DNA from: Owenia fusiformis
Taxonomy: Eukaryota > Annelida > Polychaeta > Sabellida > Oweniidae
DNA length: 64,000 nt
Assembly (NCBI GenBank): GCA_903813345.2
Contig: CAIIXF020000007.1
Coordinates: 4,407,730-4,471,729 of the forward strand
Direction: 5' to 3'
The notes below the pieces were generated by a model that was given only the letters and a program-made list of their open reading frames with translations, had not been told where the DNA came from and did no database searches. Of this stretch, positions 18,201 to 39,434 are shown piece after piece (position 1 is the first letter of the stretch; each line of letters starts with the position of its first letter). A program made the position numbers and the translations under genes.

Positions 18201-21200
18201 CCCCACGACGGGTACCGGTAACAGTTTGGGTAATAAATCACTTCTGACCTACGCGCTGACCTTCTTCCACCAATCAGCGAGCTTGAAGAAACATACGCCA
18301 AATGCGTTCTAATTAAATATGCGCGTGTCATTGGTCAATTCCGGGCTCAACGATGACGTCAGAAGAATGACCATATATAGAACGTCGGTCAAATTTGGCC
18401 GACGAACACTGATTGGCGCGGTGAGTTCACAGGTTTATTTTAGTTTGAAAGAGTGAAGACGAAGCTCTCTATTAAGAAGTGAAGTCAAACGAATGCAAAG
18501 GGTAGATATACATGTAGTTAGTTATATAAACAGTTATAGGCAGATAACAATTAAAATGTGTTTTACCTGCCACTGAAATCTATAGATAAAAGTGAAACTA
18601 GTTTTTTTGTATATTATTAACATTGGTAACCACATACCCTGGGAGAGATGTATAATATCTAAACCCTCTGTATAACTTTCTTAAACCATTGTGTGCGATA
18701 GTATGATAGCAAACAAGAATGCAGGAATATATAATGTATGGAATACATCTGTTATAAACCATTGTGTACGATAGTATGATAGCAAACAAGAATGCAGGAA
18801 TATATAATGTATGGAATACATCTGTTATAAACCATTGTGTACGATAGTATGATAGCAAACAAGAATGCAGGAATATATAATGTATGGAATACATCTGTTA
18901 TAAACCATTGTGTGCGATAGTATGATAGCAAACAAGAATGCAGGAATATATAATGTATGGAATACATCTGTTATAAACCATTGTGTACGATAGTATGATA
19001 GCAAACAAGAATGCAGGAATATATAATGTATGGAATACATCTGTTATAAACCATTGTGTGCGATAGTATGATAGCAAACAAGAATGCAGGAATATATAAT
19101 GTATGGAATACATCTGTTATAAACCATTGTGTACGATAGTATGATAGCAAACAAGAATGCAGGAATATATAATGTATGGAATACATCTGTTATAAACCAT
19201 TGTGTACGATAGTATGATAGCAAACAAGAATGCAGGAATATATAATGTATGGAATACATCTGTTATAAACCATTGTGTACGATAGTATGATAGCAAACAA
19301 GAATGCAGGAATATATAATGTATGGAATACATCTGTTATAAACCATTGTGTGCGATAGTATGATAGCAAACAAGAATGCAGGAATATATAATGTATGGAA
19401 TACATCTGTTATAAACCATTGTGTACGATAGTATGATAGCAAACAAGAATGCAGGAATATATAATGTATGGAATACATCTGTTATAAACCATTGTGTGCG
19501 ATAGTATGATAGCAAACAAGAATGCAGGAATATATAATGTATGGAATACATCTGTTATAAACCATTGTGTACGATAGTATGATAGCAAACAAGAATGCAG
19601 GAATATATAATGTATGGAATACATCTGTTATAAACCATTGTGTGCGATAGTATGATAGCAAACAAGAATGCAGGAATATATAATGTATGGAATACATCTG
19701 TTATAAACCATTGTGTGCGATAGTATGATAGCAAACAAGAATGCAGGAATATATAATGTATGGAATGCATCTGTTATATACCATTGTTTTTGGATCCAGG
19801 GTTTATTCATCAGGAAATATGTGTATCTCCCTTGGGCCTCTTCTCACCTTCAATTGTAACTGATGCTTCCCTCCTCACCTCCAATAAGTTTAAAAAGACA
19901 TAAGATTTCTGTAAATTTTCAAAATGTATTCTAGAAATTATCATTTACAGTTTATTATGAGCTTATTCAGAACATTAATGTATCATGATACTGCCTAAGT
20001 TGAAACATATAGCAAGGGCAGTCATATTTATAATGGTATGATTAAATTCAATCTTACGCTTATGAATCAAATTAAAATCAATAATTAACTTGTAGTGCTG
20101 TCCCCAGCTCCGATTTCGGTGATCGGCTAGTAAAAAAGGTTTGAGAGTATCATTTTGTTCCAGACACTCTCTAGAGTAAACTATCCTAACTTGAGTAAAA
20201 ATGTGTGGTAAGTAAATTCGCTATGGGCAGTTAAAGAGGCGCCATCTATTCATTTTAAAACAGGGGGTAGGGGTATAAAATAATTTTTAACACATCTTAA
20301 TAGTAAAATGACATTGAAATACTAATAAAATCTTATCAAAAACATTATTTACAATCAGTATGAATTTTTTTGTGTGAATTAGGGTGAAAATAAGGGCATA
20401 TTTTGAAATTCACTACAGGGGCGCCACCTATTTTCATACTTCTACCACATGTAATAACTTATTTTAGATTCGTTAAGGTACGAAATGTACTGAAAAAATT
20501 CATTCTGAAGGACCTATATATGTTCATACCACATACTTAAAATTGGATCAATAGCTTATGTACTGGCGGAGAAAAATATTATTGAAATATAAAATTTTGG
20601 CATCATGCAGGATAGGGGTGACCATATCTCACATGATTAACTTCCAAAATATGGAGCATATGTATCTCAAATGTACTCAAAATGGTGTATGTACTCTTGC
20701 TTTGTCATAATATTACTAATAAGAAGTAGAAAAATGATTGTACATTTTAAAAAATATTAATTCTCATTTTGGCTTCTGACGTCCCAAGGGTGACCATATC
20801 TCACCTTAATAACTTCCAAAATATGGAGCATATGTATCTCAAATGTACTCAAAATGGTGTATGTACTCTTGCTTTGTCATAATATTACTAATAAGAAGTA
20901 GAAAAATGATTGTACATTTTAAAAAATATTGATTCTCATTTTGGCTTCTGACGTCCCAGGGGTGACCATATCTCACCTTAATAACTTCCAAAATATGGAG
21001 CTTATGTATCTCAAATGTACTCAAAATGGTGTATGTACTCTTGATTTGTCATAATATTACTAATAAGAAGTAGAAAAATGATTGTACATTTTAGAAAATA
21101 TTGATTCTCATTTTGGCTTCTGACGTCCCAGGGGTGACCATATCTCACCTTAATAACTTCCAAAATATGGAGCATATGTATCTCAAATGTACTAAAAATG

Positions 21201-24200
21201 GTGAATGTACTCTTGCTTTGTCATAATATTACTAATAAGAAGTAAAAAAAAATAATTGAACATTTAGAATAATATTGATTCTCATTTTGGCTTCTGACGT
21301 CCCAGGGGTGACCATATCTCACCTTAATAACTTCCAAAATATGGAGCATATGTATCTCAAATGTACTCAAAAAGGTGTATGTACTCTTGCTTTTTTATCA
21401 TAATATTACTAATAAGAAGTAGATAATGATTATACATTTCAAAAATTTTAATTTTAGCTTCTTACGTTCCTGGGTAATCATATCGCACCATATAATAATA
21501 ATAACTAGACTTTGGAAATTGAACAAGTTCAATTTCAGACTCCAGATTTAGACTTTAAGCTGAGTCATCCACAATAAGCAGAGTCATCCAGAATAAGCCA
21601 AGTCATCCAGAATAAGCCGAGTCATCCAGCATAAGCTGAGTCATCCAGAATAAGCAGGTGGATGGCTGGACTGATGGATGAATGGATGGATTGATAGGAG
21701 GAAGGATAGGACAGAATAGGAAGGAAGGATAGGATATAATAGGAAGAAAGGATAGGATAGTATAGGGTATGAAGGATAGAATAGGATACGATAGAATCCG
21801 AAGAAAAATAAGATAGGACAGAATAGGAAGGATAGGATAGGATAGGAAGGATAGGAAAGAAGGATAGGATTGGATAGGATAGGTGGGATGGATATAGCCG
21901 AGTATTCCAGAATAAGCCAAGTCATCCAGAATAAGCTGAGTCATCCAGAATAAGCCGAGTCATCCATAATAAGCCGATGGATGGATGGATTGATGGATTA
22001 ATGGATGAATGGATGGATTGATAGGATAGGAAGGATAGGACAGAATAGGGAGGAAGGATAGGATAGTATAGGATAGGATAGGAAGGATAGAATAGTATAC
22101 GATAGAATCCGAAGAAAGAATAAGATAGGACAGAATAGGAAGGATGGGATAGGATAGGAAGGAAGGATAGGATAGGAAGGATAGGAAAGAAGGATAGAAT
22201 TGGATAGGATAGGTGGGATGGATATTATAGTCGATTCATCCAAAATAGCCAAGTCATCCAGAATAGGCGGAGTCATCCACAATAAGCTGAGTCATCCAGA
22301 ATAAGCCGATGGATGGATGGATTGATGGATGAATGGATGAATTCATAGGATAGGACAGAATAGGAAGAAAGGATATGATAGTATAGGATAGGATAGGATA
22401 GGAAGGATAGAATAGGATATGATAGAATCCGAAGAAAGAATAAGATAGGACAGAATAGGAAGGATGGGATAGGAAGGAAGGAAGGAAGGATAGGAAAGAA
22501 GGATAGGATTGAATAGGATAGGTGGGATGGATATAGCCGAGTCGTCCAGAATAAGCCAAGTCGTCCAGTCCTATCCCTCTTTCCTATCCTTCTTATCCTA
22601 TCCTTCCTTCCTATCCTATCCTTCCTTCCAGAATAGGAAGGAAGGATAGGATAGAATAGGAAGAAACGATAGGATAGTATAGGATAGGAAGGAAGGATAG
22701 GATAGGAAGGATAGGAAAGAAGGATAGGATTGGATATACGATAGGATATAGGATATATATAGAATAGGAAGGAAGGATAGGATAGGAAGGAAAGGATAGG
22801 AAGGAAGGATATGATCAGACAGGATAGGAAGGAAGGATGGATGATTTTTTCTATATTTTCTTCGCTACTCTTGACTTTCTATAAGGATATAATCAGATCG
22901 ATTTTTCTCGAAATTTCAAAACGCCATAACTTTTGAACCGGAAGTCGAATTGAAATTTGGTTTGCAGATTCGGATTCCTGAGTAAATTCTACCCTTAATT
23001 CATAACTCAGATGTTAAATTTGGATAACTTTTTATTTTGACCTATTTTCTGGACGCCATATTTCAAAATCTGTAAGCGTAATCAAAAATCTAATGTCATA
23101 TCTTTGCTTTGGCTTTTTCTAAGCTACATGATGAAAAAAAGATTTAGGAGTTACGATAAACAACGACGAAGATAAATGACAGAATGTTGAAAATGTAAGA
23201 TTTAACCTAGTTCTTGACCTTTGACCTAGATAAAAATTTGACCCAATTTCCGAGAAACTATATCTAGGACCTAAATGGACCATATATAAGACTTGACTCA
23301 ATATCTTCTAGTTAACGAGAAAACTGGGAAAGAATAATAAACAAAGAATAATAATAAAGAATACTGACGAAAACAATAGACTCCAGATTTACATCTGGAG
23401 TCTAATAACTTCTAAGATACTGTATGTAACATATAATCCTCATCCTGTCTTTTTCATATTACTAATGAAATGTAGAAAAATGTAGCATTTTTTTTATAAA
23501 TTTTAATTTTAGCCTCTGGTGTCCCAGGGGCTATCTCACCTTGATAACTCTCACGATATGCAACATATGCATCTCAAATGTGTGCTCAAAATGGTATAAA
23601 TATAGTCTTGTTTTGTCATATTTATTGAGAATAATAAAATCAACAGTTCAGAATCAATGGATTTTGACTGTCTCCTCTACAGCTACATATAATTCAGGGC
23701 AAATAATATCTGCTTTCAAATATTTGCATCTGCTCCCCAAACACCCTTTACAAGTACAATGGATGAGATTATTCCCTTGCATACCTTGGATCCAACATCT
23801 TTTGTAATCCATACAGGAATCCTTTTAGCCTGTCAATAGTGGGAGTACTTTACTCCATTCATGAAGTAATGGCAACTGCTAATGTAAGGTGTTAATATGT
23901 TATACTGTGGCCTGCAATATATGCACCTTGGATTATACACTGAATTAAGGGATTTTGAGTATGTAAAATACGGGAAAAGGAGCTCTTTGTAATGATAAAT
24001 CTTTCTAGCCACATTAACATTCACTAGTTTGCATGTTTGTCATACAACATACATTGATTGTAATGAAATATTAATCTATGATTGTGATGTCCCACACTTC
24101 TAGGGTCCCAAAGAAGAGCTTAGCTTTTGGAACAATTGCATTATTCTTGGCACGGTAGGCCATACAGTGAATACAACTGTTGAGATTGGGCAATAACAAT

Positions 24201-27200
24201 ATAGCACAACATGACATGCAAACTAGAGAATGTCAATCAGGATTAGAAGCGACTTATCGCCCTTGTAATTTAGCAGTGGGACAGTTTGGTGTATGTTTGG
24301 GCATAAATGCGCCTTTTAGGCCTAATTTTTCAGGATATTTTCAAAATTTGGGGTCAGATTTGGGGTTAAGGGGCCAATTTTGGTAAATGAAGCTAGGCTA
24401 CTCACACTACTGATAGGCTACCAGTATACAAAAGATGTTGCATCCAAGGCATGCAAAAGACTTATCGTCCATTGTTCCTGTAATATAAGGAGTGTTTGGG
24501 GAGAAGATGCAAATATTTGAAAGTAGATCTTAATGTCTCTGGACTATATGTAGCTGAAGCCTGCAGGGGAGACAGTCCAATCCATAAATTCTGAACTTCT
24601 GATTTCATGAATCTCAATAAATATGACAAAACAAGACTATATTTATACCATTTTGGGCACGCATTTGAGATGCATATGTTGCATATCGTGAGAGTTATAT
24701 CAAGGTGAGATATAGTTGCCCCTGGGATGTCAGATTCGGATGCTAAAATGAAAATTTCAATTCAAAAAAGGTCTAATAATTTTTTCTACATCTCATGAAT
24801 AATATTATGACAAAGCAAGACCATATGCCCCATTTTTGGTATATTTGAGTTGTATATGTTACATAATTTTAGAAGTTATTGAGGGATGTCAGAAGCTAAA
24901 ATTAAAATTTTTTGAATGTATAATCTTCTTATTAGTATAATATTATGACAAAGCAAGAGTACATACACCATTTTGAGTACATTTGAGATACATATGCTCC
25001 ATATTTTGGAAGTTATTAAGGTGAGATATGGTCAGACCTGGGACGTCAGAAGCCAAATTGAGAATTAATATTTTTTAAAAATGTGCAATCATTTTCCTAC
25101 ATCTTATTAGTAATATTATGACAAGACACGACTATATACACCATTTTGAGTACATTTGAGATACATATGTTACATATTTTGGAAGTTATTAAGGTGAGAT
25201 ATGGTCAGTGGTCATCCCTGGAACGTCGGAAGCTAAAATGAAGATTAATATTTTTAAAATGTACAATTATTTCTCTACATCTTATAAGTAATATTATGAC
25301 AAAGCAAGACTATATACACCATTTTGAGCACATTTGAGATACATATGCTCCATATTTTGAAAGTTATTAAGGTGAGATATGGTCACCCCTGGAACGTCAG
25401 AAGCCAAAATGAGAATTAATATTTTTTAAATTGTACAATCATTTTTCTACTTCTTATTAGTAATATTATGACAAAGCAAGAGTACATACACCATTTTGAG
25501 TATATTTGAGATACAAATGCTCAATATTTTGGAAGTTATTAAGGTGAGATATGGTCACCCCTGGAACGTCAGAAGCCAAAATGAGAATTAATATTTTTTA
25601 AAATGTACAATCATTTTTCTACTTCTTATTAGTAATATTATGACATAGCAAGAGTACATACACCATTTTGAGCACAATTGAGATACATATGCTCCATATT
25701 TTGGAAGTTATTAAGGTGAGATATGGTCACCCCTGGGACGTCAGAAGCCAAAATGAGAATTAATATTTTTTAAAATTGTACAATCATTTTTCTACTTCTT
25801 ATTAGTAATATTATGACAAAGCAAGAGTACATGCACCATCTTGAGTACATTTGAGATACATATGCTCCATATTTTGGAAGTTAATCATGTGAGATATGGT
25901 CACCCCTATCCTGCATGATGCCACAATTTTAAATTTCAAGAATTTTTTTCTCCCCAGGTACGAAAGCTATTGATCCAATTTTAAGTATGTGGTATGAACA
26001 TATATAGGTCCTTCAGAATGAATTTTTTCAGTACATTTCGTACCTTAACGAATCTAAAATAAGTTATTACACGTGGTAGAAGTATGAAAATAGGTGGCGC
26101 CCCTGTAGTGAATTTCAAAATATGCCCTTATTTTCACCCTAATTCACACAAAAAAATTCATACTGATTGTAAATAATGTTTTTGATAAGATTTTATTAGT
26201 ATTTCAATGTCATTTTACTATTAAGATGTGTTAAAAATTATTTTATACCCCTACCCCCTGTTTTAAAATGAATAGATGGCGCCTCTTTAACTGCCCATAG
26301 CGAATTTACTTACCACACATTTTTACTCAAGTTAGGATAATTTACTCTAGAGAGTGTCTGGAACAAAATGATACCCTCAAACCTTTTTTACTAGCCGATC
26401 ACCGAAATCGGAGCTGGGAACAGCACTATTGTGTGAGAACATTAATGACAATTAAGCATCAATTGTAGCTTGGCTAAAAACAGTTATTTACTTGTTTCAC
26501 ATTAAAGGTAGGTACCCTTTATTTACAATGTAGAACTCAGAACTGAGAAGACTCTGAGAAGAATCACTGCATGATAGAGGTTTTCTCTCTATTGGTGTTT
26601 ACGAATCCAACGGAGATGTTTTCAAGGGTCAAAATGAAGAAAAAGAAGTTTTGTTCTGGAAACTAGTTCACTGTAAAAAGTGATGTTTACTAATATTTTA
26701 AAAGGGTTGATCACTTGAGAGAGGGATGTTCATTAGAGGAGATTGAAGTTTTCAAACTTCATTGTGTTCACTGGAGCACTTCAGTTTGAACAAATCCTCA
26801 AAAGAGAAATGAAATAAAATCTATCTCCTCTGAACACCTTGACTGGCCAAAAGGATTTGAATCAGCTGGTCTTCACATACAAGGTTTTCTCAACATGTAA
26901 GTCAATGGGAGATAATGAACTTTGGACCAAGAAAGTGTTCATATTGAGAGGTGTTCAGATTAGAAAGGTGTTTGGTTTTACTGTATTGAAACTTCAGGCA
27001 AATATGCATTAAAAAAAGGTTGTGTTTTGCAGAGGCGTAGCGTGGGTATTTTGTGAGAGTACGCCACGAGTGAGCGAAGTGAACGAGTTCGAGGGGGGTT
27101 TGGGGGGGGGTTCTCCCCCAAGAAAATTTTAAAATGAGATTGCATTTGAAGCGTCCTGGGTCGGTTTGAAATACGAAATTCCGACTTAATCTGGACCAAT

Positions 27201-30200
27201 TCAAAATGTAAATTATTAGTCATTTTTATCCAATATTTTATGATTACATGAACCCGTTTTAAAATAATGGCAAGATCATTTTTCTCTCAAATTTGAGAGT
27301 ACGCAATGGCGTTTTTTGCGTATATGACGCTACGCCATTGGTTTTGTGTTTGTAGATCTAGGAGTCATGCCTGCCCAGGCTGCTATGCCAATGTCCGCAG
27401 CTGAGATGATGTTCCAGAATGGACTGCAACAAGGGGGGATAGACAATTACTGTAACAGCTACGCAACACCTGGCTCTTCCAATAACTTTTCTAACCCAAC
27501 CAACTTCAACACGACTCTTTATAACACAGGTAAGTTCTACTTGTGGAGTCAAAGGTAATAACGGTTATGGTGACATCTTTATTTAAAACCGCTACTTTGA
27601 CATATTTGGGATTAAAGAGTCAATCATGGTATAAATTGGTCAAGGTCATTCAAAAGTGGCCACTTCAGAGATATGTAGTCAGAATATATTCTCCCGAAAA
27701 CATTTGGGTATACATGTATGTCCCTGTGTATATGTCTAAATCAATGAGATTCATGATTGACCGCATTCATGATTGCTTACAACCATAAATACATTGTAAA
27801 AGTTTTCAGTGTAACATAGTCCCTTGGGAAATGCACCTATTTCCCTTGAGATAAACCATGGGCTTTCAACTAGATTGAAAGCCCATGGATAAAATGTGTA
27901 TCCCAAACCTCCCAGTACATCCTAGAGAGTACATCACCCTTATAAGTTTTATAACACATCAAAAATGTAACACACAGACATCTGCATGGATTGTTAATCA
28001 AAAAATGAAAAATGGGTTTTGTTGTTTTTAGGTGCTGTGCAACCAGCTTTTTCAACATTGAATCCTGGGGCTGTGAACTTCACATCACAACAGAATATGC
28101 CCCACATGAACCCACCCCCTTTACCTCCCCTGCCTTCAGTCCAAAAACAACAGAACTTTATTCCTGGAGCAATATCTAATAGGGCCTTGGAGGAACTGTC
28201 CGCGGATTCCCCACAGAAATCTGGATACAGAGCCATACAAAAAGCTGAACAGAAAATTAGGTGAGCCTCTCCGGTTTTGTTGGAATTCCTGACAAATGGC
28301 AATAAAAGAATAAAAAAAACTAGAGAGCTATTTGAAATTGAAAATTTAAATACAGTAAAACCTGTGTAAAGTGAACACCTATGGAGCCACAAAAATGTGT
28401 TCACTGTAGGTAGGTATTCACGACAGAGCAGCAATTTTATACAGAAGTCAGTGGAGTATGTGTTAGGAGGTGTTCACTAGACACAGGTGTTTACGAAAGA
28501 GAGGTGTTCACTCAGTGTTTTCTAAAACAACGATTTAATTTAATTAATTTGTACATTTCGGGCCATACAGTCCGTTATGTCCCCTGACCGTGTTACCACA
28601 AGTGCTGCAACACCTTGGCTTAGCTCCTTGCGTTTCTATATCACTATTAGTATCCATTATACGGTTCTTCAAAAACTTCTTCAAAAAGCTTTACTCAACT
28701 ATGACTACGTGTAAATCGAATGAACATAGGCATGCGCTAATAATCAGTTATAGTAAGATAATAAAGATGTCGCGATGCAATTAAAAACTATTTACTTTGT
28801 AAATAATCAATAGAATTTATAGAGTTATGTTGATTTTGATAAGGTAATTATCTTGATGAATATATCATTGTTATATGGTTTGAGCAAATGTTTTTCTGAA
28901 CTTTCATAATTAACATTTGAATATTTTTTCTTATACATGTATTTTATTCTTCATTTCTAGTGAATTTGGAGGGCTCACATCAACTTATGGTGTCTATGAC
29001 CACACAACGTACGATAGATCTCAGCTTGGCGATAAGCAGCTCAATGATTACAGTAGCTCCCTCTATACACATAATGCAGGCAATTGTAATACAGGTCGTT
29101 ACATCACTCGCAGTCCCTCCCCACTTAGTGATTCTGATACAAGTGCTATTAGTATGGCCAGTGCAAGTACTGCCAGTGGGGGGATGCCCCATACAGAGAA
29201 TGGGCCTGACTCAACTTTACAGCTAACTGATTTAATGGTAAGAATTTGCATACATTTGTGACTTATGTAAGTATATGCTACATCATCTGACATCCTTAAT
29301 GTATTTAAAATATCAATACACTAAACATGTACTGCACAAACTTTTTATTAGACTCCAGATTGAAAATCTGGAGTCTATTGTTTTTGCCTGTTTTCTTTAT
29401 TATTAGACTCCAGATGAAATCTGGAGTCTATTGTTTTCGTCAGTTTTCTTCTTATTATTATTATTCTTCTTCTTATTATTCTAACTCAGTTTTCTCAATA
29501 ACCATAAGGTCTTCAGTAAAGTCAATCATTTGGTCAATTTAGGTTCAGTATCTAGTTCTCTGGAAATTGGGTCAAATTTTTATCTAGGTCAAAGGTCAAG
29601 AACTAGGTCAAATCCAGTACTTTGTCACTTTTTTCGATTTTCTCGGTCATCCTTCAATATTTTTGATCCGGGTTTTTTTCATTGTGTTCCTTATAAAAAA
29701 GTAGGAAACCTAGGGTCGATTTAGTTTTTTGATATCTCAAACCGATTTCGAGATATCAGTGTCCGAAAACGAGGTCCAAAAAAAAGTTCTCCGAATCAAA
29801 TGTCCAGGATATTAGTCTTATAGGAAATTTTCTCAGAATTCGGAATCTGAAAACGAAATTTCGATCCGACTTCCAGTTCGGAAGTTATGGCGTTTTGAAA
29901 ACTCAAAAATCGCTAAATTTGGTGCCCATGTTAAGTCAATGGGAAAGAATATTTTTTTGAAGTGAAAAATACGGAATAAAGACTGAGTTAAGCTTCATAT
30001 AATCAAAGCCTTTAAAAGAAGGAGACCTCAAAAGCCATCTAGCTTCAAAATTTGGACACCGAAATGGCTAGGTCAAAATCTAGGTCAAATTCATATGTTT
30101 TCCTTATTTTTTCGATTCTGACACTACACTTTAATTATATTCTTCGAAATTGTGTATACTTGTAGCCAAGAATATGCTAATAGTGTTAGCCTTTTGCCGT

Positions 30201-33200
30201 CAGAAAGTATTTTGATCCATTTTTGAGATATGGTGTCCGAAAAGTAGGTCAAAATAAAAAGTTCTCCAAATTTAATATACGAGTTATGAATTATGGGTAG
30301 AATTCTGTCAGGAATCCGGATCTGCAAACCAAATTTCGATCCGACTTCCGGTTCGGAAGTTATGGCGTGTCCGAAAAGTAGGTCAAAATAAAAAATCTCC
30401 AAATTTAACGTATGAGTTATGAATTAGGGGCAGAATTTTGTCAGGAATCCGAATCTGCAAACCAAATTTCCGGTTCGGAAGTTATAGCGTTTTGAAATTT
30501 CGAGAAAAATCGATCTGATGGTATCCTGATAGAAAGTCAAGAGTAGAGAAGAAAATATTGAAAAATTCATCCATCCTTCCTATCTCATCCTATCCTATCC
30601 TTCCTTCATATTTTTTCCTTCCTATCCTTCCTATCCTATCCTTTCTTCCTATTCTATCCTATCCTTCTTTCTTATTCTATCCCATCGTTCTTTCCTATTC
30701 TATCCTATCCTACCTTCCTATTTTATTTATCCATCTCTTTCTAGATGACTCAGCTTATTCTGGATGACTCGGCTTATTCTGGATGACTCGGCTAAAAAAA
30801 GTCTAGATCTGGAGTCTGAAATTGAACTTCGTTCAATTTCCAAAATCTAGTTATTATTAGACTCCAGATTGAAAATCTGGAGTCTATTGCTTTTGCCAGT
30901 TTTCTTTATTATTATTATTATTATTATTATTTTTCTTTCTTTTTTCTTCCTCCTCACCAAATTTCTCGTCAACTATAACAGCTTACTTAATCCAACTTAC
31001 ATGGTTAACTAAAGACTGAAACCGGCTTTCTGGGAAATTAGGTCAAATTTTTATCTAGGTCAAAGGTCAAGAACTAGGTCAAATCTTACATTTTCAACAT
31101 TCTTCATCATATCTTCGTCAATATTCTTCGTAACTCCTTCATCTTTTTTTCATCGTGTAGCTTAGAAAAAGGGGAATCAAAGATATGACATCAGAATTTT
31201 GATTACTCTTACCGATTTTGAGATACGGCGTCCGAAATGTAGGTCACGCCTAAACATGCTCCAAATCGAATGTGTGAGCTATGAAAAAGATGTAGAATTT
31301 TCTCAGGAATCCAAATCTGCAAACCAAATTTGGATCGGACTTCCGGTTCGGAAGTTATGGCGTTTTGAAAGCTCAAAAATCGCTAAATTTGGTGCCTATG
31401 TTAAGTCAATGGGAAAAAAGACTTTTTCGAAGTGTAAAATACAGGATATTGACTGAGTACAGCTTAACATAATGAATGCTTATAAAAGAAGGGGACCTCA
31501 AAAGCTACATAGCTTCAAAATTTGGACACCAAAATGCCTAGGTCAAAATCAAGGTCAAATTCATAGTTTTTCCTTATTTTTACGATTCTGACACTACACT
31601 TTAATAATTTACTTCAAAATTTTGTATACATGTAGCAAAGAGTGTGCTAATAGTGTTAGCCTCTTGCCGTCAGAAAGTATTTTGACCCACTTTTGAGATA
31701 TGGTGTCCGAAAGTAGGTCAAAATAAAAAGTTCTCCAGATTCAACGTATGAGTTATGAATTAAGGGTAGAATCTTCTCAGGAATCCGAATCTGCAAACCA
31801 AATTTCGATCCGACTACCGGTTCGGAAGTTATGGCGTGTCCAAAAAGTAGGTCAAAATAAAAAAAATTCCAAATTTAACGTATGAGTTATGAATTAGGGG
31901 TAGAATTTTGTCAGGAATCCAAATCTGCAAACCAAATTACGATCCGACTTCCGGTTCGAAAGTTATGGGGTTTTGAAAGCTCAAAAATCGCTAAATTTGG
32001 TGCCCCATGTTATGTCAATGAGAAAAAGGATTTTTTTGAAGTGTAAAATACCAGATAAAGACTGAGTACAGCTTAATATTCTGAAAGCCTATAAAAGGAG
32101 GGGACCTCGAAGGCTATCTAGCTTTAAAATTTGGACGCAAAAATGCCTTGGTCAAAATATAGGTCAAATTCATAGTTTTTCCTTATTTTTGCGATTCTGA
32201 CATTACACTTTAAGGATTTGCTTCAAAATTTTGTATACAGGTAGCAAAGAGTGTGCTTATAGTGTTAGCCTTCTGCCGTCAGAAAGTTTTTTGACCCACT
32301 TTTGAGATATGGTGTCCGAAATGTAGGTCAAAATAAAAAATTATCCAAATTTAACGTATGAGTTATGAATTAGGGGTAGAATTTTCTCAGGAATCAGAAT
32401 CTTTAAACCAAATTTCGATCTAACTTCTGGTTAGATAGTTATAGCGGTTTGAAGTCTCGAAAAGTCGATATGATGATATCCCCATGTTAAGCTAATAGAG
32501 TCGAAGATAGCCTTCTTAAAAGTTGTCTAAATGTCTATATTCTAGCTGACTCAGCTTATTCTGAATGACTCAGCTTACAAGTTCTGGATGACTCAGCTTA
32601 AAAAAAATGTGAAATCTGGAGTCTTAAATTGAACTTGTTCAATTTACATGTCTAGTTATTATTATTTTTCTTCCTCCTCACCAAATTTCTCGTCAACTAT
32701 AACAGCTTACTTAATCCAACTTACATGGTTAACTAAAGACTGAAACCGGCTTTCTGGGAAATTAGGTCAAATTTTTATCTAGGTCAAAGGTCAAGAACTA
32801 GGTCAAATCCAGTACTTTGTCACTTTTTCCCATTATCTCGGTCGTCCTTCAATATTTTTGATCCTGGTTTTTTTCATTGTGTTCCTCATAAAAAAGTAGA
32901 AAACCTAGGGTCGATTTAGTTTTTTGGTATCTCAAACCGATTTCGAGATATCAGTGTCCGAAAACAATGTCCAGGATATCAGTCTTATAGGAAATTTTAT
33001 CAGGATTCTGAATCTGAAAACCAAATTTCGATCTGACTTCCGGTTCAGAAGTTATGGCGTTTTGAAAATTCAAAAATCGCTAAATTTGGTGCCCCATGTT
33101 AATTCAATGGGAAAAAATATTTTTTTGAAGTGTAAAATACGAGATATAGACTAAGCACAGCTAAACATAATGGAAGCCCATAAAAGAAAGGGACCACAAG

Positions 33201-36200
33201 ACCTTCTTTTCATAAAAATTTGGGCACCAAAATGCCTAGGTCAAAATCTAGGTCAAATTCAAAGTTTTTCCTTATTTTTGCGATTCTGACACTACAGATT
33301 AATTATATTCTTCGAAATTTTGTATACATGTAGCCAAGAGTGTGCTAATAGTGTTAGCCTTTTGCCGTCAGAAAGTATTTTGACCCACTTTTGAGACATG
33401 GTGTCCGAAATGTAGGTCAAACTAAAAAGTTCTCCAAATTTAACGTATGAGTTATGAATTAAGGGTAGAATTTTCTCAGGAATCCAAATCTGCAAACCAA
33501 ATATCAATCCGACTTTTGGTTTGGAATTTATGTCGTTTTGAAAGCTCAAAAATCGCTAAATTTGGTGCCCCATGTTATGGCAATGGGAAAAAATATTTTT
33601 TTGAAGTGTAAAATACGAGATAAAGACTGAGTACAGCTTCACATAATGAAAGCCTATAAAAGAAAGGGACCTCAAAAGCTAGCTAGCTTCACAATTTGGT
33701 CACCAAAATGCCTAGATCAAAATCTAGGTCAAATTTATAGTTTTAACTTATTTTTGCGATTCTGACACTACACTTAAATTATTTGCTTCAAAATTTTGTA
33801 TACAGGTAGCAAAGAGTGTGCTAATAGTGTTAGCCTTTTTGCCGTCAGAAAGTATTTTGACCCACTTTTGAGATATAGTGTCCGAAAAGGAGGTCAACAT
33901 GAAAGTTTCTCCAAATTTAACGTATGAGTTATGAATTAAGGGTAGAATTTTCTCAGGAATCCAAATCTGCAAATCAAATTTCAATGGCGTTTTGAAAAAT
34001 TAAAAAATTGGTATTTTGATATCCCATGTTATGTCAATTATCTTTGTCACTATTCGTCGTTATTCCTTTATCTTTTTTTCATCATGTAGCTTAAAGACAG
34101 TCCTTTCATTATTGTAACTGTCTTTTTTGATTACTCTTACCGATTTTGACGAATGGCGTCCGGAAAGTAGGTCAACATAAAAAGTTTTCAAAATTTAATG
34201 TATGAGTTATGACACAAACGTAGAATTTTCTCAGAAATTCGAATCTGCAAACCAAATTTCGACCCAAATTCTGGTTAGATAGTTATAGCTGTTTGAAGTC
34301 TCGAAAAGTCGATATTATGATATCCCCATGTTAAGCCAATGTAGACGAAGATAAGCTACTTAGGAGTTGTCTAAATGTCTGTATTCTAGATGACTCAGCT
34401 TATTCTGAATGGCTCAGCTAACAGTATTTTGGATGACTCAGCTTAAAAAAAGTTTTAAATCTGGAGTCTTAAATTGAACTTGTTCAATTTACATGTCTAG
34501 TTATTATTTTTCTTTATAGGTCCATTAAAGAAATCGCAATCATCAAATTACAAAATTATTTATTTTGTTTTGAATTAAGTTCCTGTCCATTCCATATAGG
34601 AAAGTAATTTCAACCAGTTGATCTGAATCAACCACAAGTGGTGAAATATTGTTATAAGTCTCCAACTTTTTCGTGGATGGTATTTGGCATTTTGTGGTCT
34701 GCATCTGTAACAAATGGCAGGTGGTGACATTTTGCATGTTAATGTTTATGTTCTTTTGTAGAACTGCCTCAATATCAACCCAAACATGCTGTACCAACCA
34801 ACAACAATATCCCCACTACCCTCCCCAGCTATGCCTCACAACCAACCATCTGCCCCACTACCCCAAGCCAACCAACAGTGCAACACCACAATGCAACATC
34901 ACAACCAACAACCTCAACCAACCCAGAATGACCTGGTACGTGCTGTACAGATGCAGAGTGAGATACTACGCAGGTCTCATATGGTACGTGAGGAAGCTGC
35001 CCAGGCTAATGACAACACTGACAATAAAGCGAGTGGCATTAATTCCCTGTTCTGTACAAATTCCCAGGATCCCTATTCCATCGAACGAGCAGCCAAGCTT
35101 TATAGGAATGCTGCAGGTAGGTCATTTGTTAACAATTCTGACATTTTTGTAGTATTGAATCATTGTCATGCAACGAGCAATCTGATCCATTTTGTGACTC
35201 ACTTTCTGCAACCTAGTTTCTGTTTTGTGAAATGACCTCTATTGTTGTTTTTCATTCATATTAAAACTCAATTGATCATGTATCATCAAAATCTGTTAAA
35301 AATGACATATTTAATGGTTTTACACCTTCACAAAAAAAACTGAAAACAAAAAGGTGTTTTTCTTCACAGGTAAATATAGATATAGAATGTAAAAATTGTT
35401 AGTACCTATTCTTGAATAATTGGTAATTATATAAACATAACAATATTCATCATGCAGATCAACCAGAAGTAATCCCAATCCTTTTTGTGTAAATGTATGT
35501 ATATTTCTAGCTGTGTATGAAGCTACTTGTACATGGAGTGGCCAGTTACCCCCTAAGGCCTACAAGAACCCCACATACTCATGTAAAGTTTTCTTAGGGG
35601 GCGTTCCCTGGGACATCACTGAGAGTAAGTTCATCTTAGAGTCATTCTTTTACAGCTGGGGGGGACGGGGTCTTATTGTTAAAAAGACCCAGAAATGTAA
35701 GGTATAAGAGACACTATCATTTACTCCAAAGTTAAAAGTTTTGATTCTGGTTAAAGTTGTCTAACTTAAGTCTGTCTAAATGGACAAAAATGATTTCCTT
35801 TTCTAGCCATGAAATGCCTCTTGCAACCCCTTTACATATAATGTAATGTGTCTCCCAGATTCTGTTGATAATTGCACAATGCATTTAAAAATAGAGTTGT
35901 ATTTTACAGCTGCACTGAGCAATATCTTCAAAGTGTTTGGACCAATGAGGATTGAGTGGCCAGAGAAGGACCATAAACATCCCAGGAACCCTCCTAAAGG
36001 TGAGCATAACATGTTTTTTTATTTGAAAAAGGGCCATATTATCATTGTCTTGTGCTGATGGGTGTGATGATGTGTGGGCAGGCACCACATGAATCAATTT
36101 TTGTCATCAAAATTCCAGGAAAACTCCTAACCTGTTCATTCAACTAGTTTATGTTTAGTTTTCTATTGGTGCCCCCTTTATGGAAGTCTGCATGCTGGAT

Positions 36201-39200
36201 GTAATCTTATTAAACACTTGATTTTTATCACTCTTTGACACTTGCTCTTACTACTTATTAATTACAATTCAACTTAAAGCAGATATGAAATGGTATTTTT
36301 AACCTAAAGGAATCAATATAATTTTTTGATAAATGTATTTGGACATGTTTTCTCATCAGTAGTGCGAAAACTATTTCACTCTAACGATCGTTATAGCTGC
36401 TTTAATAAGCAATATTCGAATTGGTTGTGACGTTATTGGCCCCCACGTGATCTCTCACTGGTCCCCACGTGGCCCATAACGTCATAATGCCAAACTGTTT
36501 TGTTTTGGTTTACACTACAATCCTATGGTTGCCGTGACGTCGTGATTACTAAGGTACCAATAAACCAAAGCTATATTTTGTATATGACGTTACTTATCAC
36601 GTGGGGGCCAATTTGATTGATCAGTTAGTTTTATTTCGTTATTTATGACCGTTAGCAGTTATCTAACATTTATTTCATAATGGCTATCGCAAGAACTCTG
36701 CGTTGGGCTTACAATGGAGAAAACCGCATTTTTGTAGCTGCAAGTTGAGAAAAGCTATTTCAGTTGTGCTTTAATATTGAATAAATGGTACAATGAGAAA
36801 CAAAGCAAGTTTTTGAAATTCCACATATGGGACAATTGAATGAGTCGAATAGGATTGCAAATGAACCACCAGTGTGTTGACACACAGATTCAAACACAGA
36901 CTGAGAGATGATTCCAATAGCCCTCCCTCCCAACCTCTCACATTACCAATAAACCATCTATGATTACTGTAATTTAATCCTCTATTGTAATTTAAACTAC
37001 CTAGAATGCCTATTAGGCGATTGGTAGTAGATATTTTGTGTATTTTTTGATTATGAAGGAAATAAATAATATGCTAAAAAAAAAATAAAATAGCTACATC
37101 ATGTGCTCCAATAACTAGTTAGAGTTGCATCGTGGATGTATGTATGAGACAACTACATAGTACTATTAACTCATATGTTCCAGGTTACGTGTACATTCTA
37201 TTTGACTCTGAGAAGTCTGTGAAAGCTTTGCTCCAGGGCTGTACACATGACTTCAGTAATGGTGGGGAGTACTACTTCAAGATCTCAAGTAGACGCATGA
37301 GATGCAAGGAGGTTAGCAAGGAGTTACAATCCCTCATTAGTATTCAATGATTACTGACATATTTGCCACTTAAGTGTAAAGAATTTTAATGTGTGAAATT
37401 GATAATGAAATCCAAGGAGTGAATTCTTAGACATTAACTCCATAAGGAGTGACAAAGGATATAGGTACCTACTACCTATGTTGAGGGTAACTTTGCAAAA
37501 TAGTTAGTTTTACCATCATATTTGCTTATCTATGCATTTCCTTCCCTCCTCTGCCCTTTTCCTACAAAATCCACAAGTTCTAACTTGTGTAATCAAGTTC
37601 TAAATCAAGTTCAAGGGTGGCTTTTTTTCATGATATAATTTGATTCCAGGTTCAAGTGATACCCTGGGTATTGACAGACAGTAACTTTGTGCGCCAGCCC
37701 TCCCAGAGACTTGACCCGAACAAGACTGTGTTTGTTGGAGCCTTACATGGAATGATGAATGCAGAGGGTTTGGCCCATTGTATGAACGATCTATTTGGCA
37801 ATGTCGTCTATGCAGGGATTGACACAGACAAGCATAAGTATCCAATTGGTAAGCTAAAAACTATTCCAATATCTGCCGAGAGGCAAGATTTTAGAAAGGC
37901 TTAAATGAATTGGAAGGCTTAACTGCCACCCAAACTCCAAACTCTGTAGTTAAATTTTCTACCTCATTTCTGAAAATTTGAAATATGTGAGGTTCATTGA
38001 AATAATTATCATTTTTAATGAGCTATTGATGATGTGACTTTAACATTAAATGTGTATATAAATCTGTTGTCTTTGTGTTCAATAGCAGTGGAATGATAAC
38101 TGAACTATCAAATCCCAGCCTGAAATGCTCACCAGCGTATTAATTTTCAAAATGCATTCATTAAGTCATTTTATAGTAAATGAAATAAGAAATGACAAAA
38201 ACATTGACAGTGTTAATAATGTATTGTTGGAAAATATTAAAGTTTAAATCTGATAACTCTTCCTCATACCCTTTCTAATAGTAACATCCACTAGCCTTGA
38301 GTTTGAGAGTATTTCTTATCTGGCTTGTGCTAAAAGCATTTGATCATATACATATATTTCAGGTTCAGGACGCGTAACATTCAGCACACATAAAAGCTTC
38401 ATGAAAGCTGTCACATCTGCCTTCATAGAGATAAAGTCGCCAAAGTTCACCAAAAAGGTAGGTTTGTTTTTGATCTGTGTTGTTATTTTTAAACATGACC
38501 ACTCAACATTGATGAAATTCAGATATTTTTCATGTTTCTCTTTTGATAAAATTTTTTTTTCTGATTTTTTTTAACAATTGTATTTTAAAGGTATTTTAAA
38601 CAACTCGAATATATACAAAAAAACTCAAATATGTCATGGAAATAAATTCCAGTTCCAAGTTAATTTGCCAACAAAATTTGAAATATTTTTTTAGAAGTAC
38701 ATGTATTTAACTTACAATTAAATGCTATATCAACTATTTTCGTTTACCTTGATTGTCTCCCACTTAAGCCATTCTCATATCAACTGTACATGTATGTTCC
38801 ACTTCAGGTTCAGATTGATCCTTACCTGGAAGATTCCCTCTGCAACACATGCAACATGACACAGGTCCCTTTACAGTCATTCTCATATCAACTGTACACG
38901 TATGTTCCACTTCAGGTTCAGATTGATCCTTACCTGGAAGATTCCCTCTGCAACACATGCAACATGACACAGGTCCCTTAACAGTCATTCTCATATCAAC
39001 TTTATGTTCCACTTCAGGTTCAGATTGATCCTTACCTGGAAGATTCCCTCTGCAACACATGCAACATGACACAGGTCCCTTAACAGTCATTCTCATATGA
39101 ACTTTATGTTCCACTTCAGGTTCAGATTGATCCTTACCTGGAAGATTCCCTCTGCAACACATGCAACATGACACAGGTCCCTTTACAGTCATTCTCATAT

Positions 39201-39434
39201 CAACTTTATGTTTCACTTCAGGTTCAGATTGATCCTTACCTGGAAGATTCCCTCTGCAACACATGCAACATGACGCAGGGCCCATTCTTCTGCCGAGATT
39301 CCAACTGTTTCCGCTACTTCTGCCGATCATGTTGGCAGTGGCAACACTCGCTAGACTCGCTACGTCATCACAAGCCTCTAATGCGAAACAGCAAGACGAA
39401 CCCAAACCCTACCTCAACTGTTGGGCTTCTATAA
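12284..39434 (+). CDS. CPEB1: CPEB1-like cytoplasmic polyadenylation element-binding protein (whole gene span)
   Basis: Exons: 12284-12292 (inferred start), 17581-17842, 27356-27529, 28032-28260, 28961-29237, 34762-35116, 35511-35624, 35910-35999, 37184-37311, 37650-37848, 38363-38457, 39222-39434. Splice phases agree at every join and the sum is 2145 nt (714 aa; human CPEB1 is 566). Order of parts: an N-terminal helix motif ([18 protein letters not shown]) like that of vertebrate CPEB1; a Ser-rich stretch with [11 protein letters not shown]; an Asn/Gln/Pro-rich segment; D-P-Y-S-I-E-R-A-A leading into RRM1 ([13 protein letters not shown]); RRM2 ([17 protein letters not shown]); and the Cys/His zinc-binding ZZ tail. 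The family binds U-rich CPE elements in 3' UTRs and represses or activates translation by controlling poly(A) length in oocytes and neurons. CPEB1 rather than CPEB2-4 is chosen from the N-terminal motif and linker. The extra length lies in the low-complexity N-terminal half and introns are transposon-rich. Confidence 0.93.
12484..12778. mobile_element. C/G-run MITE with CACTGGCGG-type ends
   Basis: It starts GCACTGGCGGTTCTAGA and ends CCTAGATCAGCCAGTG, an imperfect inverted repeat. The interior is GGCCC and AAAATT runs. It is related to the element at 13005-13331. No clear target duplication was found. Confidence 0.6.
12870..14080. mobile_element. TIR repeat composite (GTTCCACATATCATTTAC family), left copy
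   Basis: The core runs from about 12993 to 13953. The left end reads AGTTCCACA, is interrupted by a MITE, and continues TATCATTTACAGGACCAGGA. The right end reads TCCTGGTCATGTAAATGATA then TGTGGAACTAGT. Inside are inverted segments AATATATTGCTCTAAATGAT (13641) and its complement near 13771. The flanks carry AACAGAGTTCTGTTT and TGACAAAAC segments also found at 16980-17110. A second, partial copy is at 16605-17130. Confidence 0.65.
13005..13331. mobile_element. hAT-type MITE nested in the TIR repeat, 8-bp target duplication
   Basis: The 8-bp direct repeat GTTCCACA lies at 12997-13004 and 13332-13339. The ends are GGGGCGGATC and GATCCGCCAGT. The same site is uninterrupted (TAGTTCCACATATC) at 16606 and, reversed, at 13934-13952. 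An 8-bp duplication is typical of hAT transposons. Confidence 0.75.
15096..16107 (-). mobile_element. Tc1/mariner-type transposon remnant with about 200-bp TIRs
   Basis: The ends are CAGGATGTCCCAAAAAAAGG and CCTTTTTTTGGGACACACTC, flanked by TA on both sides. The inverted match runs inward for about 200 bases (15096-15305 against 15895-16107). The minus-strand interior at 15442-15708 encodes [19 protein letters not shown], the C-terminal DDE signature region of mariner/Tc1-like transposases. The N-terminal two thirds are missing, so this is an internally deleted, non-autonomous copy. Confidence 0.85.
15442..15708 (-). pseudogene. Mariner-type transposase C-terminal fragment
   Basis: The only recognisable piece is [23 protein letters not shown] followed by [11 protein letters not shown]. 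It lacks the DNA-binding domain and the upstream catalytic aspartates, so it cannot be active. Confidence 0.8.
16605..17130. repeat. TIR repeat composite, partial inverted copy
   Basis: It begins AACTAGTTCCACATATCATT and carries the same AAATGTGCTCAATATATTGC, TAACTTCCATGGCACC and GACTGGAGGTCAAAACAGA segments as 12870-14080, arranged in the opposite sense. It is separated from that copy by the mariner-containing block. Confidence 0.65.
17235..17480. repeat. Degenerate repeat shared with 43080-43800
   Basis: TTCTCAGAAGTTCAAATC, AAATCATCTACAGAGTTCTC and GTGGTGACATTTTG match the tandem block at 43.1-43.8 kb. It sits about 100 bases before CPEB1 exon 2. Confidence 0.55.
17581..17842 (+). CDS. CPEB1: CPEB1-like exon 2 (N-terminal helix motif)
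   Basis: Acceptor TTTTCACAG and donor GTGAGA; phase 0 in, phase 1 out. It encodes a Gln/Pro/Asn-rich stretch (Q-P-Q-V-P-Q-P-Q-F and N-P-Y-Q-Q-Q-G) and then [17 protein letters not shown]. The last part aligns with the N-terminal R-R-I-N-A-I-L-D-N-S-L-D segment of vertebrate CPEB1 and is the best single marker that this is a CPEB1-class protein. Confidence 0.9.
17843..18170 (+). other. CPEB1 intron 2 start, nothing recognised
   Basis: AT-rich intronic sequence after the exon 2 donor. No RNA gene or clear repeat. Confidence 0.4.
18180..18430 (+). promoter_or_regulatory. Promoter-like segment within CPEB1 intron 2
   Basis: A CG-rich island in AT-rich sequence. In order it carries CCCCGCCCCC (18195), CCAATCAGCG (18270), CATTGGTCAATT (about 18329), the CRE core TGACGTCA (18354), CATATATAG (18371), and a GATTGGCGCG that runs into GTGAGTTC (18421), a good donor. 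Together these look like a TATA/CCAAT/CRE promoter with a short first exon. A nearby motif (GTGAAGACGAAGCTCTCT) also occurs, with one change, at 1867, so the block may instead be part of a mobile element. Confidence 0.4.
18690..19784. repeat. 73-bp satellite, 15 nearly identical copies
   Basis: The unit is about GCGATAGTATGATAGCAAAC, then AAGAATGCAGGAATATATAA, TGTATGGAATACATCTGTTA and TAAACCATTGTGT. Copies differ almost only at one base (GTGTGCG or GTGTACG). All antisense frames are open, which yields overlapping 71-residue phantom frames. It lies inside CPEB1 intron 2. Confidence 0.97.
20093..26428. mobile_element. Foldback-type transposon with ~2-kb arms of 172-bp tandem units
   Basis: The left end TAGTGCTGTCCCCAGCTCCG mirrors the right end CGGAGCTGGGAACAGCACTA, with TTG beside each end as a possible 3-bp duplication. 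About 500 bases of unique arm (20093-20600 against 25920-26428) are almost identical inverted. Next come about 6 left and 7 right tandem units of about 172 bp, starting near 20617, 20789, 20961, 21133 and 21307. The inverted match resumes at 23520-23807 against 24427-24720. The loop is about 23808-24426. No transposase is seen. Confidence 0.85.
21505..23405 (-). mobile_element. Helentron-like non-autonomous element inserted in the foldback left arm
   Basis: In minus orientation it starts with the palindrome TAGACTCCAGAT/ATCTGGAGTCTA. It carries GGTCAAGAACTAGGT-type sequence, a large GGATA-type microsatellite block (21660-22850) and GGATGACTCGGCTTATTCT units. It ends with the hairpin AAATTGAAC-TTGTTCAATTT and CTAG. 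It splits a 172-bp foldback unit at an AATAA site. Confidence 0.75.
26735..26985. repeat. Dispersed inverted-repeat element (ACAGTAAAACCTGT family)
   Basis: The right end reads GGTGTTCAGATTAGAAAGG then TTTTACTGTA. The interior shares TGTAAGTCAATGGGAGATAA with other copies. The left boundary is uncertain. Confidence 0.5.
27033..27340. mobile_element. MITE with GGCGTAGCGT-type ends, directly before CPEB1 exon 3
   Basis: The left end AGAGGCGTAGCGTGGG mirrors the right end GACGCTACGCCATTGG. The interior holds a G-run and C-run pair (GGGGGGGTTCTCCCCC) and GAGAGTACGC twice. It ends about 15 bases before the exon 3 acceptor. Confidence 0.65.
27356..27529 (+). CDS. CPEB1: CPEB1-like exon 3 (Met/Ala/Asn-rich linker)
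   Basis: Acceptor TTTGTAG and donor GTAAGT; phase 1 at both ends, 174 nt, so it could be skipped without a frameshift. It encodes Ala/Met-rich then Asn/Ser/Thr-rich low-complexity sequence. A MITE ends about 15 bases before the acceptor. No catalytic or binding motif is visible. Confidence 0.82.
27530..28031 (+). other. CPEB1 intron 3, nothing recognised
   Basis: AT-rich intron. A short inverted pair (ATGGGCTTTCAA and TTGAAAGCCCAT) near 27850-27890 forms a hairpin. Confidence 0.4.
28032..28260 (+). CDS. CPEB1: CPEB1-like exon 4 (Pro-rich linker)
   Basis: Acceptor TTTTTAG and donor GTGAGC; phase 1 in, phase 2 out. It encodes a linker with P-P-P-L-P-P-L-P and then a charged segment ([13 protein letters not shown]). 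The phases fit exons 3 and 5. An antisense frame is also open but has no match to any family. Confidence 0.85.
28351..28515. repeat. Dispersed inverted-repeat element (ACAGTAAAACCTGT family)
   Basis: It starts TACAGTAAAACCTGTGTAAA, with GTGAACACC and GAGGTGTTCACT segments. The right end is degraded. It lies in CPEB1 intron 4. Confidence 0.55.
28961..29237 (+). CDS. CPEB1: CPEB1-like exon 5 (Ser-rich phospho-regulatory region)
   Basis: Acceptor TTTCTAG and donor GTAAGA; phase 2 in, phase 0 out. It encodes a Tyr/Asp/Thr-rich part and then [16 protein letters not shown]. That block matches the vertebrate CPEB1 stretch S-R-S-S-S-P-S-D-S-D-T-S, which lies just after the Aurora/CDK-regulated LDSR site. 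The SP dipeptides are candidate proline-directed kinase sites. A clear L-D-S-R motif is absent; R-Y-I-T-R occupies its place. Confidence 0.88.
29349..30850 (+). mobile_element. Helentron-like unit 1 (with an extra 5' terminus)
   Basis: Two copies of the terminal palindrome (TTAGACTCCAGAT, then ATCTGGAGTCTATTG) stand 55 bases apart. The body has repeated TTCGGAAGTTATGGCGT, a TATCC microsatellite (30580-30720) and GGATGACTCGGCTTATTCT units. It ends AAATTGAAC-TTC-GTTCAATTT and CTAG at 30847-30850. Confidence 0.75.
30851..32655 (+). mobile_element. Helentron-like unit 2
   Basis: It starts TTATTATTAGACTCCAGATT immediately after unit 1 and ends with hairpin AAATTGAAC-TTGTTCAATTT and CTAG at 32652-32655. 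It lacks the large microsatellite. It contains two or three internal repeats of the TCCGGTTCGGAAGTTATGG block. Confidence 0.75.
32656..34500 (+). mobile_element. Helentron-like unit 3 (no 5' palindrome)
   Basis: It follows unit 2 directly after CTAG with TTATTATTATTTTTC. It shares CCTCCTCACCAAATTTCTCG with unit 2 and ends in the same hairpin and CTAG at 34497-34500. The 5' palindrome is missing at the junction. Confidence 0.72.
34762..35116 (+). CDS. CPEB1: CPEB1-like exon 6 (Asn/Gln/Pro-rich, pre-RRM linker)
   Basis: Acceptor TTTTGTAG and donor GTAGGT; phase 0 in, phase 1 out. The first half is rich in Gln, Asn, Pro and His (for example [13 protein letters not shown]). The second half has [16 protein letters not shown], matching D-P-F-S-I-E-R-E-A-R-L-H-R-Q-A-A in vertebrate CPEB1 immediately before RRM1. 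The exon lies about 260 bases after the last Helentron-like unit in the preceding intron. Confidence 0.9.
35117..35510 (+). other. CPEB1 intron 6, nothing recognised
   Basis: A short AT-rich intron between the phase-1 donor at 35117 and the exon 7 acceptor. No repeat or RNA gene recognised. Confidence 0.4.
35511..35624 (+). CDS. CPEB1: CPEB1-like exon 7 (start of RRM1)
   Basis: Acceptor ATTTCTAG and donor GTAAGT; phase 1 at both ends. It encodes [12 protein letters not shown], then [22 protein letters not shown]2 of RRM1 is V-F-L-G-G-V. The segment is nearly identical to vertebrate CPEB1. Confidence 0.96.
35910..35999 (+). CDS. CPEB1: CPEB1-like exon 8 (RRM1 middle)
   Basis: Acceptor TTTTACAG and donor GTGAGC; 90 nt, phase 1 at both ends. 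It encodes [14 protein letters not shown] then K-H-P-R-N-P-P-K-G, matching the W-P-G-K-D-G-K-H-P-R-C-P-P-K-G segment of vertebrate CPEB1. Confidence 0.95.
36274..36773. mobile_element. Candidate MITE with TTAA target site
   Basis: TTAA precedes AGCAGATATGAAATGG and follows CTATTTCAGTTGTGCT; the two ends are an imperfect inverted repeat. The interior has CACGTG-centred inverted segments (CCCCCACGTGATC, TCACGTGGGGGCC) and several TGACGT motifs. A TTAA duplication is typical of piggyBac- and Kolobok-type elements. Confidence 0.5.
37184..37311 (+). CDS. CPEB1: CPEB1-like exon 9 (RRM1 RNP1 and end)
   Basis: Acceptor TGTTCCAG and donor GTTAGC; phase 1 in, phase 0 out. It encodes [13 protein letters not shown] (RNP1 of RRM1) and [15 protein letters not shown], both family signatures. 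Confidence 0.95.
37650..37848 (+). CDS. CPEB1: CPEB1-like exon 10 (RRM2 first part)
   Basis: Acceptor ATTCCAG and donor GTAAGC; phase 0 in, phase 1 out. It encodes [25 protein letters not shown] (RNP2 of RRM2) and [14 protein letters not shown]. This is the most conserved block of the family. Confidence 0.97.
37849..38362 (+). other. CPEB1 intron 10, nothing recognised
   Basis: AT-rich intron with normal splice ends. No repeat identified. Confidence 0.4.
38363..38457 (+). CDS. CPEB1: CPEB1-like exon 11 (RRM2 end)
   Basis: Acceptor ATTTCAG and donor GTAGGT; phase 1 in, phase 0 out. It encodes G-S-G-R-V-T-F (RNP1 of RRM2) and [14 protein letters not shown]. Its phase-0 donor is compatible with any of the five downstream copies of the exon 12 acceptor. 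Confidence 0.95.
38774..39277 (+). repeat. Five tandem copies of the CPEB1 exon 12 acceptor plus first 57 exon bases
   Basis: Copies of the exon start lie at 38808, 38916, 39018, 39120 and 39222, with steps of 108, 102, 102 and 102 bases, all multiples of three. Each has the tract TTCCACTTCAG (TTTCACTTCAG in copy 5) and then the 19-codon [19 protein letters not shown]. By eye the 57 exon bases are identical in copies 1-4; copy 5 has one silent change (GACGCAG). The spacers differ slightly (CAACTGTAC, CAACTTTATG, GAACTTTATG), which argues against a simple assembly stutter. Copy 1 reads into copy 2, which ends at a TAA, as does copy 3. Copy 4 is open into the real exon. Confidence 0.93.
39222..39434 (+). 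CDS. CPEB1: CPEB1-like exon 12 (ZZ zinc-binding tail, stop)
   Basis: This is the fifth and only complete copy of the repeated acceptor/exon unit. It encodes [16 protein letters not shown], then [17 protein letters not shown] and [11 protein letters not shown]. The Cys and His residues are those of the CPEB C-terminal ZZ domain, which binds two zinc ions. The frame ends with TAA at 39432-39434 after 70 codons. Confidence 0.95.

Follow-up and report, generated by a model that had tools for sequence, protein, structure and literature searches.

Five tandem copies of a splice acceptor in the CPEB1 gene of the annelid Owenia fusiformis: a probable boundary-spanning minisatellite

The CPEB1 gene and its acceptor array

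The window, that is, the whole 64,000-nucleotide stretch of Owenia fusiformis DNA analysed here (C7:4407730-4471729), holds a gene whose traced exons are listed in Table 1 together with the repeat array that is the subject of this study. When the joined protein was searched against Pfam, it matched CEBP1_N (68.9 bits), RRM_7 (114.6 bits) and CEBP_ZZ (102.3 bits), all above cut-off, and the nearest solved structure to its tail was the ZZ domain of CPEB1 (PDB 2m13, E 4e-30). Judged by this set of domains, the gene is CPEB1 (Orb1). The second RRM gave no separate match in the Pfam search of the joined protein; we take the exon that precedes the array (ending in SPKFTKK) to encode the end of this domain.

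Table 1. Features of the CPEB1 locus (positions in the window; each copy begins with the first exon base after its acceptor)
Feature	Positions	Strand	Remarks
CPEB1 gene as traced, 11 coding exons	17581..39434	+	joined: one open frame, 711 residues; N-terminal exon(s) outside the trace
CPEB1 exon before array (...SPKFTKK)	38363..38457	+	donor AAG/GTAGGT at 38458, phase 0
Whole tandem array	38793..39283	+	TRF: period 102, 4.8 copies, 96% matches, score 886
Copy 1	38808..38864	+	57 exon-like bases 3' of acceptor TTCCACTTCAG; score 7.7; probable intronic decoy
Copy 2	38916..38972	+	57 exon-like bases, then spacer with in-frame TAA; acceptor score 6.1
Copy 3	39018..39074	+	57 exon-like bases, then spacer with in-frame TAA; acceptor score 7.7
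Copy 4	39120..39176	+	57 exon-like bases; acceptor use would add 34 residues in frame; score 7.7
Copy 5 and remainder of true terminal coding exon	39222..39434	+	ZZ domain; stop 39432-39434; acceptor score 7.8; Pfam CEBP_ZZ, PDB 2m13

At the last exon of CPEB1, the intron end plus the first 57 exon bases stand in five tandem copies, whose acceptors are set apart by steps of 108, 102, 102 and 102 bases, all divisible by three. These copies, acceptors and steps had been proposed in a sequence-only reading of the same DNA and were recovered both from the sequence and by TRF, whose score of 886 places the array far beyond chance expectation. When the assembly (498.3 Mb in 525 contigs) was searched with the array, it was found once (1 match). 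The motif CACTTCAG is kept at all five acceptors, with scores of 6.1-7.8. In the alignment, the 57 exon bases show 0 variable sites among copies 1-4 and the spacers differ, as had been claimed; copy 5 departs from the others in its exon part by a single, synonymous change (ACA to ACG). The spacers measure 51, 45, 45 and 45 bases, and a count by hand puts the differences between them at four substitutions and one 6-base indel. As two of the four carry an in-frame TAA, not every extra copy has been preserved as coding sequence.

A CEBP_ZZ profile search of the genome returned, above cut-off, five matches at the C7 array and one at a separate gene on C5, which is presumably of the CPEB2-4 type. 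The ZZ exon of this paralogue begins at the same place and in the same frame as that of CPEB1, and no repeat was seen in the 3.2 kb around it. Since exon start and frame are shared and the paralogue lacks the repeat, the CPEB1 intron seems to be old, with the array as an apparently derived insertion in it. Other tandem repeats lie within the CPEB1 gene span. Two 172-base arrays in one of its introns (20614-21445 and 24925-25907) are mutual reverse complements, with 92% identity over 832 bases, and a 73-base array (18682-19787) comprises 15 copies at 98%; the 73-base period leads to recurring 72-codon open stretches in every minus-strand frame, which are meaningless.

The donor at 38458 scores 8.8 when omitted from its own matrix, and the joined reading frame bears out its phase. 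Spliced to acceptor 5, it gives the normal CPEB1 C-terminus (Pfam CEBP_ZZ, 102 bits; PDB 2m13, CPEB1, E 4e-30). Acceptor 4 would keep the frame and insert 34 extra residues, translation from acceptors 2 and 3 would stop at a TAA after VP, and from acceptor 1 one spacer would be read through before the TAA of copy 2 is met. Gene, domain, coordinates and predicted products of the sequence-only reading, including a CPEB lacking most of the ZZ domain from acceptors 1-3, thus agree with the translations and the CEBP_ZZ and 2m13 matches.

No sequence feature singles out copies 1-4 as non-functional: their acceptor scores (6.1-7.7) resemble that of copy 5 (7.8) and those of the ten other CPEB1 acceptors (0.6-12.2). 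A second AG lies six bases 3' of each acceptor (CTTCAG/GTTCAG, 38808-39227) and scores 7.3-8.7, compared with 6.1-7.8 for the first; its use could delete residues V-Q in frame. Signs of selection on the array appear weak. Among copies 1-4, variation at 0 of 57 exon sites stands against four substitutions and one indel in the 45 of the spacer, for which Fisher's test, applied post hoc to few sites, gives p 0.015 (0.035 without the indel); with copy 5 counted, the values become 0.085 and, without the indel, 0.17. The exon invariance in copies 1-4 could reflect constraint.

Similar arrays elsewhere in the Owenia genome

Minisatellites that span an intron/exon boundary have been described and named "mirages" in amphioxus, where they occur in Adh3, globin, troponin C and PGBD5 (PMC3087553, PMC3902484). 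In Owenia, four suspicious places taken from lists of family matches were examined, and two of the four turned out to be mirages.

The first lies on the minus strand of C7:38702900-38705100, in a piece of coding sequence that matches TFIID subunit 5 (TAF5) in the PDB across all 46 residues (E 3.1e-34) and that gave no match in an NCBIfam search. Here the repeat is on the donor side: six GTAAGT donors, from 38704037 to 38703567, follow each other in five steps of exactly 94 bases, with 1 mismatch across the six 89-base exon pieces. The exon continues without a break into the first copy, and the other copies lie beyond it, in presumed intron. About 570 bases upstream of this mirage there is also a 150-base tandem array of 2.7 copies, which occupies the first 404 bases of the reverse-complemented C7:38702900-38705100.

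The second is an acceptor-side mirage in an APBA/Mint gene (PDB 1u3b, E 1.9e-25) on the minus strand of C10:6941700-6942800. Its two acceptors, 6942205 and 6942047, are 158 bases apart, each of the two copies consists of the intron end and about 98 exon bases, and the last copy is contiguous with the exon. Because TAF5 and APBA carry the same structure, the array type is a recurring class and not a speciality of CPEB1. Besides, the periods of 94 and 158 are not multiples of three, and for this reason the frame-keeping of the CPEB1 steps is best taken as coincidence, a one-in-three event for the 102-base period and another for the 6-base indel.

Two mirages is a lower bound, derived from the coordinate lists of nine Pfam family searches that were judged by eye. 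Together, these searches gave 847 matches (38, 138, 62, 150, 51, 153, 22, 91 and 142) at E-value limits from 1e-6 to 0.01; mostly only the best candidates were scored, and the Ras family was assessed among the matches listed (153 in total). WD40 and mitochondrial carrier genes contain natural repeats, so that short steps in them were set aside except in TAF5. The remaining two suspicious places were rejected. A kinase pair 178 bases apart (C10:2256400-2257800), which we take to be GSK3-like, is not an array; it consists of two diverged complete exons, each with an acceptor and a donor, which are possibly mutually exclusive. At a Ras pair on C7, no exon was found to be repeated; its locus has only a short 45-base array elsewhere. 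Tandem arrays as such are dense in this genome: 18 sampled 10-kb stretches contained 11 non-overlapping ones with a period of at least 50 and at least 2.5 copies.

The Forkhead matches bear on where the window lies. Owenia Fox genes are confined to chromosomes 1, 2, 3, 5, 6, 7, 8, 11 and 12, with foxQ2 genes in tandem on 5 and 7 (PMC9539403). With the contigs taken in the text order of the chromosome names (1, 10, 11, 12, 2 and so on), C2, C7 and C12 should lack Forkhead matches, and C8 and C10 should carry clusters. The 38 matches agree throughout: these three contigs have none, each of the other nine among C1-C12 has some, and putative foxQ2 clusters comprise four matches within about 16 kb on C8 and three within about 20 kb on C10. 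The window therefore very probably belongs to chromosome 4.

Interpretation of the CPEB1 array

We consider it highly probable that the CPEB1 array is a boundary-spanning minisatellite, a mirage, and that copies 1-4 are near-neutral intronic decoys, as judged from the sequence. The tandem unit crosses the intron/exon boundary, the extra copies carry splice signals of their own, and copy 5 (39222-39434) is contiguous with the remainder of the true exon. Such an array would form by repeated duplication of a 102-base segment that takes in the final ~45 bases of the intron and the 57 bases with which the exon opens. Duplication over a splice site would leave one edge copy, the last for acceptors and the first for donors, joined to the remaining exon, which allows arrays of this kind to originate and endure while the gene survives. 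Later growth and homogenisation may have proceeded via unequal exchange or slippage, as in other minisatellites; the identity of copies 1-4 across 57 bases, beside a copy 5 with private changes, is consistent with homogenisation, on few sites.

In such an arrangement, the spliceosome would join 38458 mainly to 39222, and copies 1-4 would leave with the intron and at most leak a little truncated or extended CPEB1. Some leakage is plausible, because acceptors 1-4 score near that of copy 5 and acceptor 1 is nearest to the donor, and the 34-residue extension from acceptor 4 could be translated as a minor coding use.

With five near-identical acceptors in CPEB1 and six identical donors in TAF5, the two genes offer natural tests of splice-site choice, which we regard as the main use of the CPEB1 array. 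For a normal protein to be made, CPEB1 has to use the acceptor most distant from its donor, and TAF5 the donor most distant from its acceptor; the whole array then exits with the intron. Exon definition means that splice sites pair across the exon, and it would select the edge copy in both genes; if the nearest site across the intron were chosen, the edge copy would not be taken. Boundary-spanning arrays may also mislead gene predictors.

On the other hand, the five acceptors might form a regulated bank, in which CPEB1 loses most of its ZZ domain through acceptors 1-3, gains the extension through acceptor 4 and is made in full through acceptor 5; this corresponds to the natural switch between full, extended and truncated CPEB put forward in the sequence-only reading. 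The scores of all five acceptors fall among those of the real CPEB1 acceptors, every step is a multiple of three, and copies 1-4 do not vary in their exon part. Besides, exon-junction-dependent decay spares mRNAs whose stop is in the last coding exon, and the truncated forms from acceptors 1-3, which stop there, would probably escape it. However, unrelated genes, TAF5 and APBA, carry the same structure with frame-breaking periods of 94 and 158, and a TAA stands in two of the four CPEB1 spacers. The predicted RNA fold of 38750-39300 is unremarkable (z -0.38, with 34 of 100 shuffled sequences folding at least as well), and an inverted-repeat search of 38363-39434 (seed 8, length at least 10) gave one short palindrome and no arms joining the intron to the copies. 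The accounts of the amphioxus arrays, moreover, report that these spare regular splicing (PMC3087553, PMC3902484). We therefore regard the switch as unsupported and a functional reading of the array as unlikely, the regulated bank itself being improbable. It seems more doubtful still that a working bank of acceptors, tuned by copy number, sets the share of ZZ-less and extended CPEB1; if true, the amount of active CPEB1 made by an oocyte or neuron would be set by allele length.

There is, further, a slim chance that the array is an assembly artefact and that the real locus holds a single copy or a different number of copies. One amphioxus array appears misassembled in the draft genome, according to the report on it (PMC3087553), and the Owenia assembly holds a single copy of the locus, so that a second allele would go unseen. 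Yet the copies are distinguished by substitutions and a 6-base indel, and an array of about 0.5 kb is short against the PacBio read N50 of more than 25 kb given for the published Owenia assembly (PMC9977687). Copy number may differ between alleles.

It is very improbable that copies 1-4 are cassette exons of 57 bases (19 residues) with the donor CAG/GTCCCT, which would add half zinc knuckles in frame. Their length of 57 is a multiple of three, and a GT lies directly 3' of copies 1-4 (38865, 38973, 39075 and 39177), though not of copy 5. Against this, the putative donor scores 3.0, less than any of the ten real CPEB1 donors (3.8-10.7) in a small matrix built from these ten only, and of the GTs in the window 16% score at least as high; introns between copies would, moreover, measure just 45-51 bases. 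A usable donor of its own was thus not found for each CPEB1 copy, a weak test given the small matrix.

Early intron gain, in which the AG/GT that opens one copy would act as donor to the acceptor of a subsequent copy and so create new introns, is scarcely credible: every copy does start with AG/GT, and related routes have been proposed for amphioxus mirages (PMC3087553) and for tandem genomic duplication generally (PMC3443670), but CAG/GTTCAG has a donor score of 0.7, which 37% of window GTs reach, and an old intron has apparently been lengthened, no intron that newly interrupts a once continuous exon being seen in CPEB1, whose exon start and frame the C5 paralogue shares.

Comparison with known systems

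The mirage reading of the CPEB1 array touches on three known systems. Tandem duplicated, mutually exclusive exons likewise consist of repeated exon-like sequence with acceptors of its own, whereas CPEB1 copies 1-4 amount to pieces of an exon that lack a credible donor; the diverged, complete kinase exons on C10 illustrate the other arrangement. The AGGT model of intron gain by tandem genomic duplication shares with the Owenia case that duplication makes extra AG/GT sites, as that model is set out in PMC3443670; in Owenia CPEB1, by contrast, it is an existing intron that lengthens, and no new intron is seen in the sequence.

The closest relatives are the amphioxus mirages, which are likewise tandem repeats over an intron/exon boundary and, in the accounts available, lie on either exon side: BflGb6 has an acceptor-side layout like that of CPEB1, and BflGb9 has the repeat on the opposite side of the exon (PMC3087553). 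Their units are given as 10-160 bases, and many copies are described as retaining splice signals (PMC3087553, PMC3902484). As for their effects, Adh3 data and globin RT-PCR are reported to suggest regular splicing, although the same source considers that the copies could serve as cryptic sites for alternative transcripts and proposes their recruitment as exons (PMC3087553). Aberrant mRNAs are reportedly not produced from the mirages of Adh and troponin C, and for the PGBD5 repeats, a less perfect case, normal splicing is suggested by analogy (PMC3902484). A limited search of the open-access literature found mirages in amphioxus only, and a search in the same literature for Owenia together with CPEB retrieved nothing.

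The Owenia arrays differ from those of amphioxus in phylum and in the genes concerned, and also in that regular splicing and allele length variation are reported for amphioxus, whereas the Owenia case is described here from the genome sequence. In summary, the kind of array is already known from amphioxus; new here is a mirage in an annelid, with two sister cases in the same genome. Besides amphioxus, an annelid thus has mirages too, and they are found at either end of exons.
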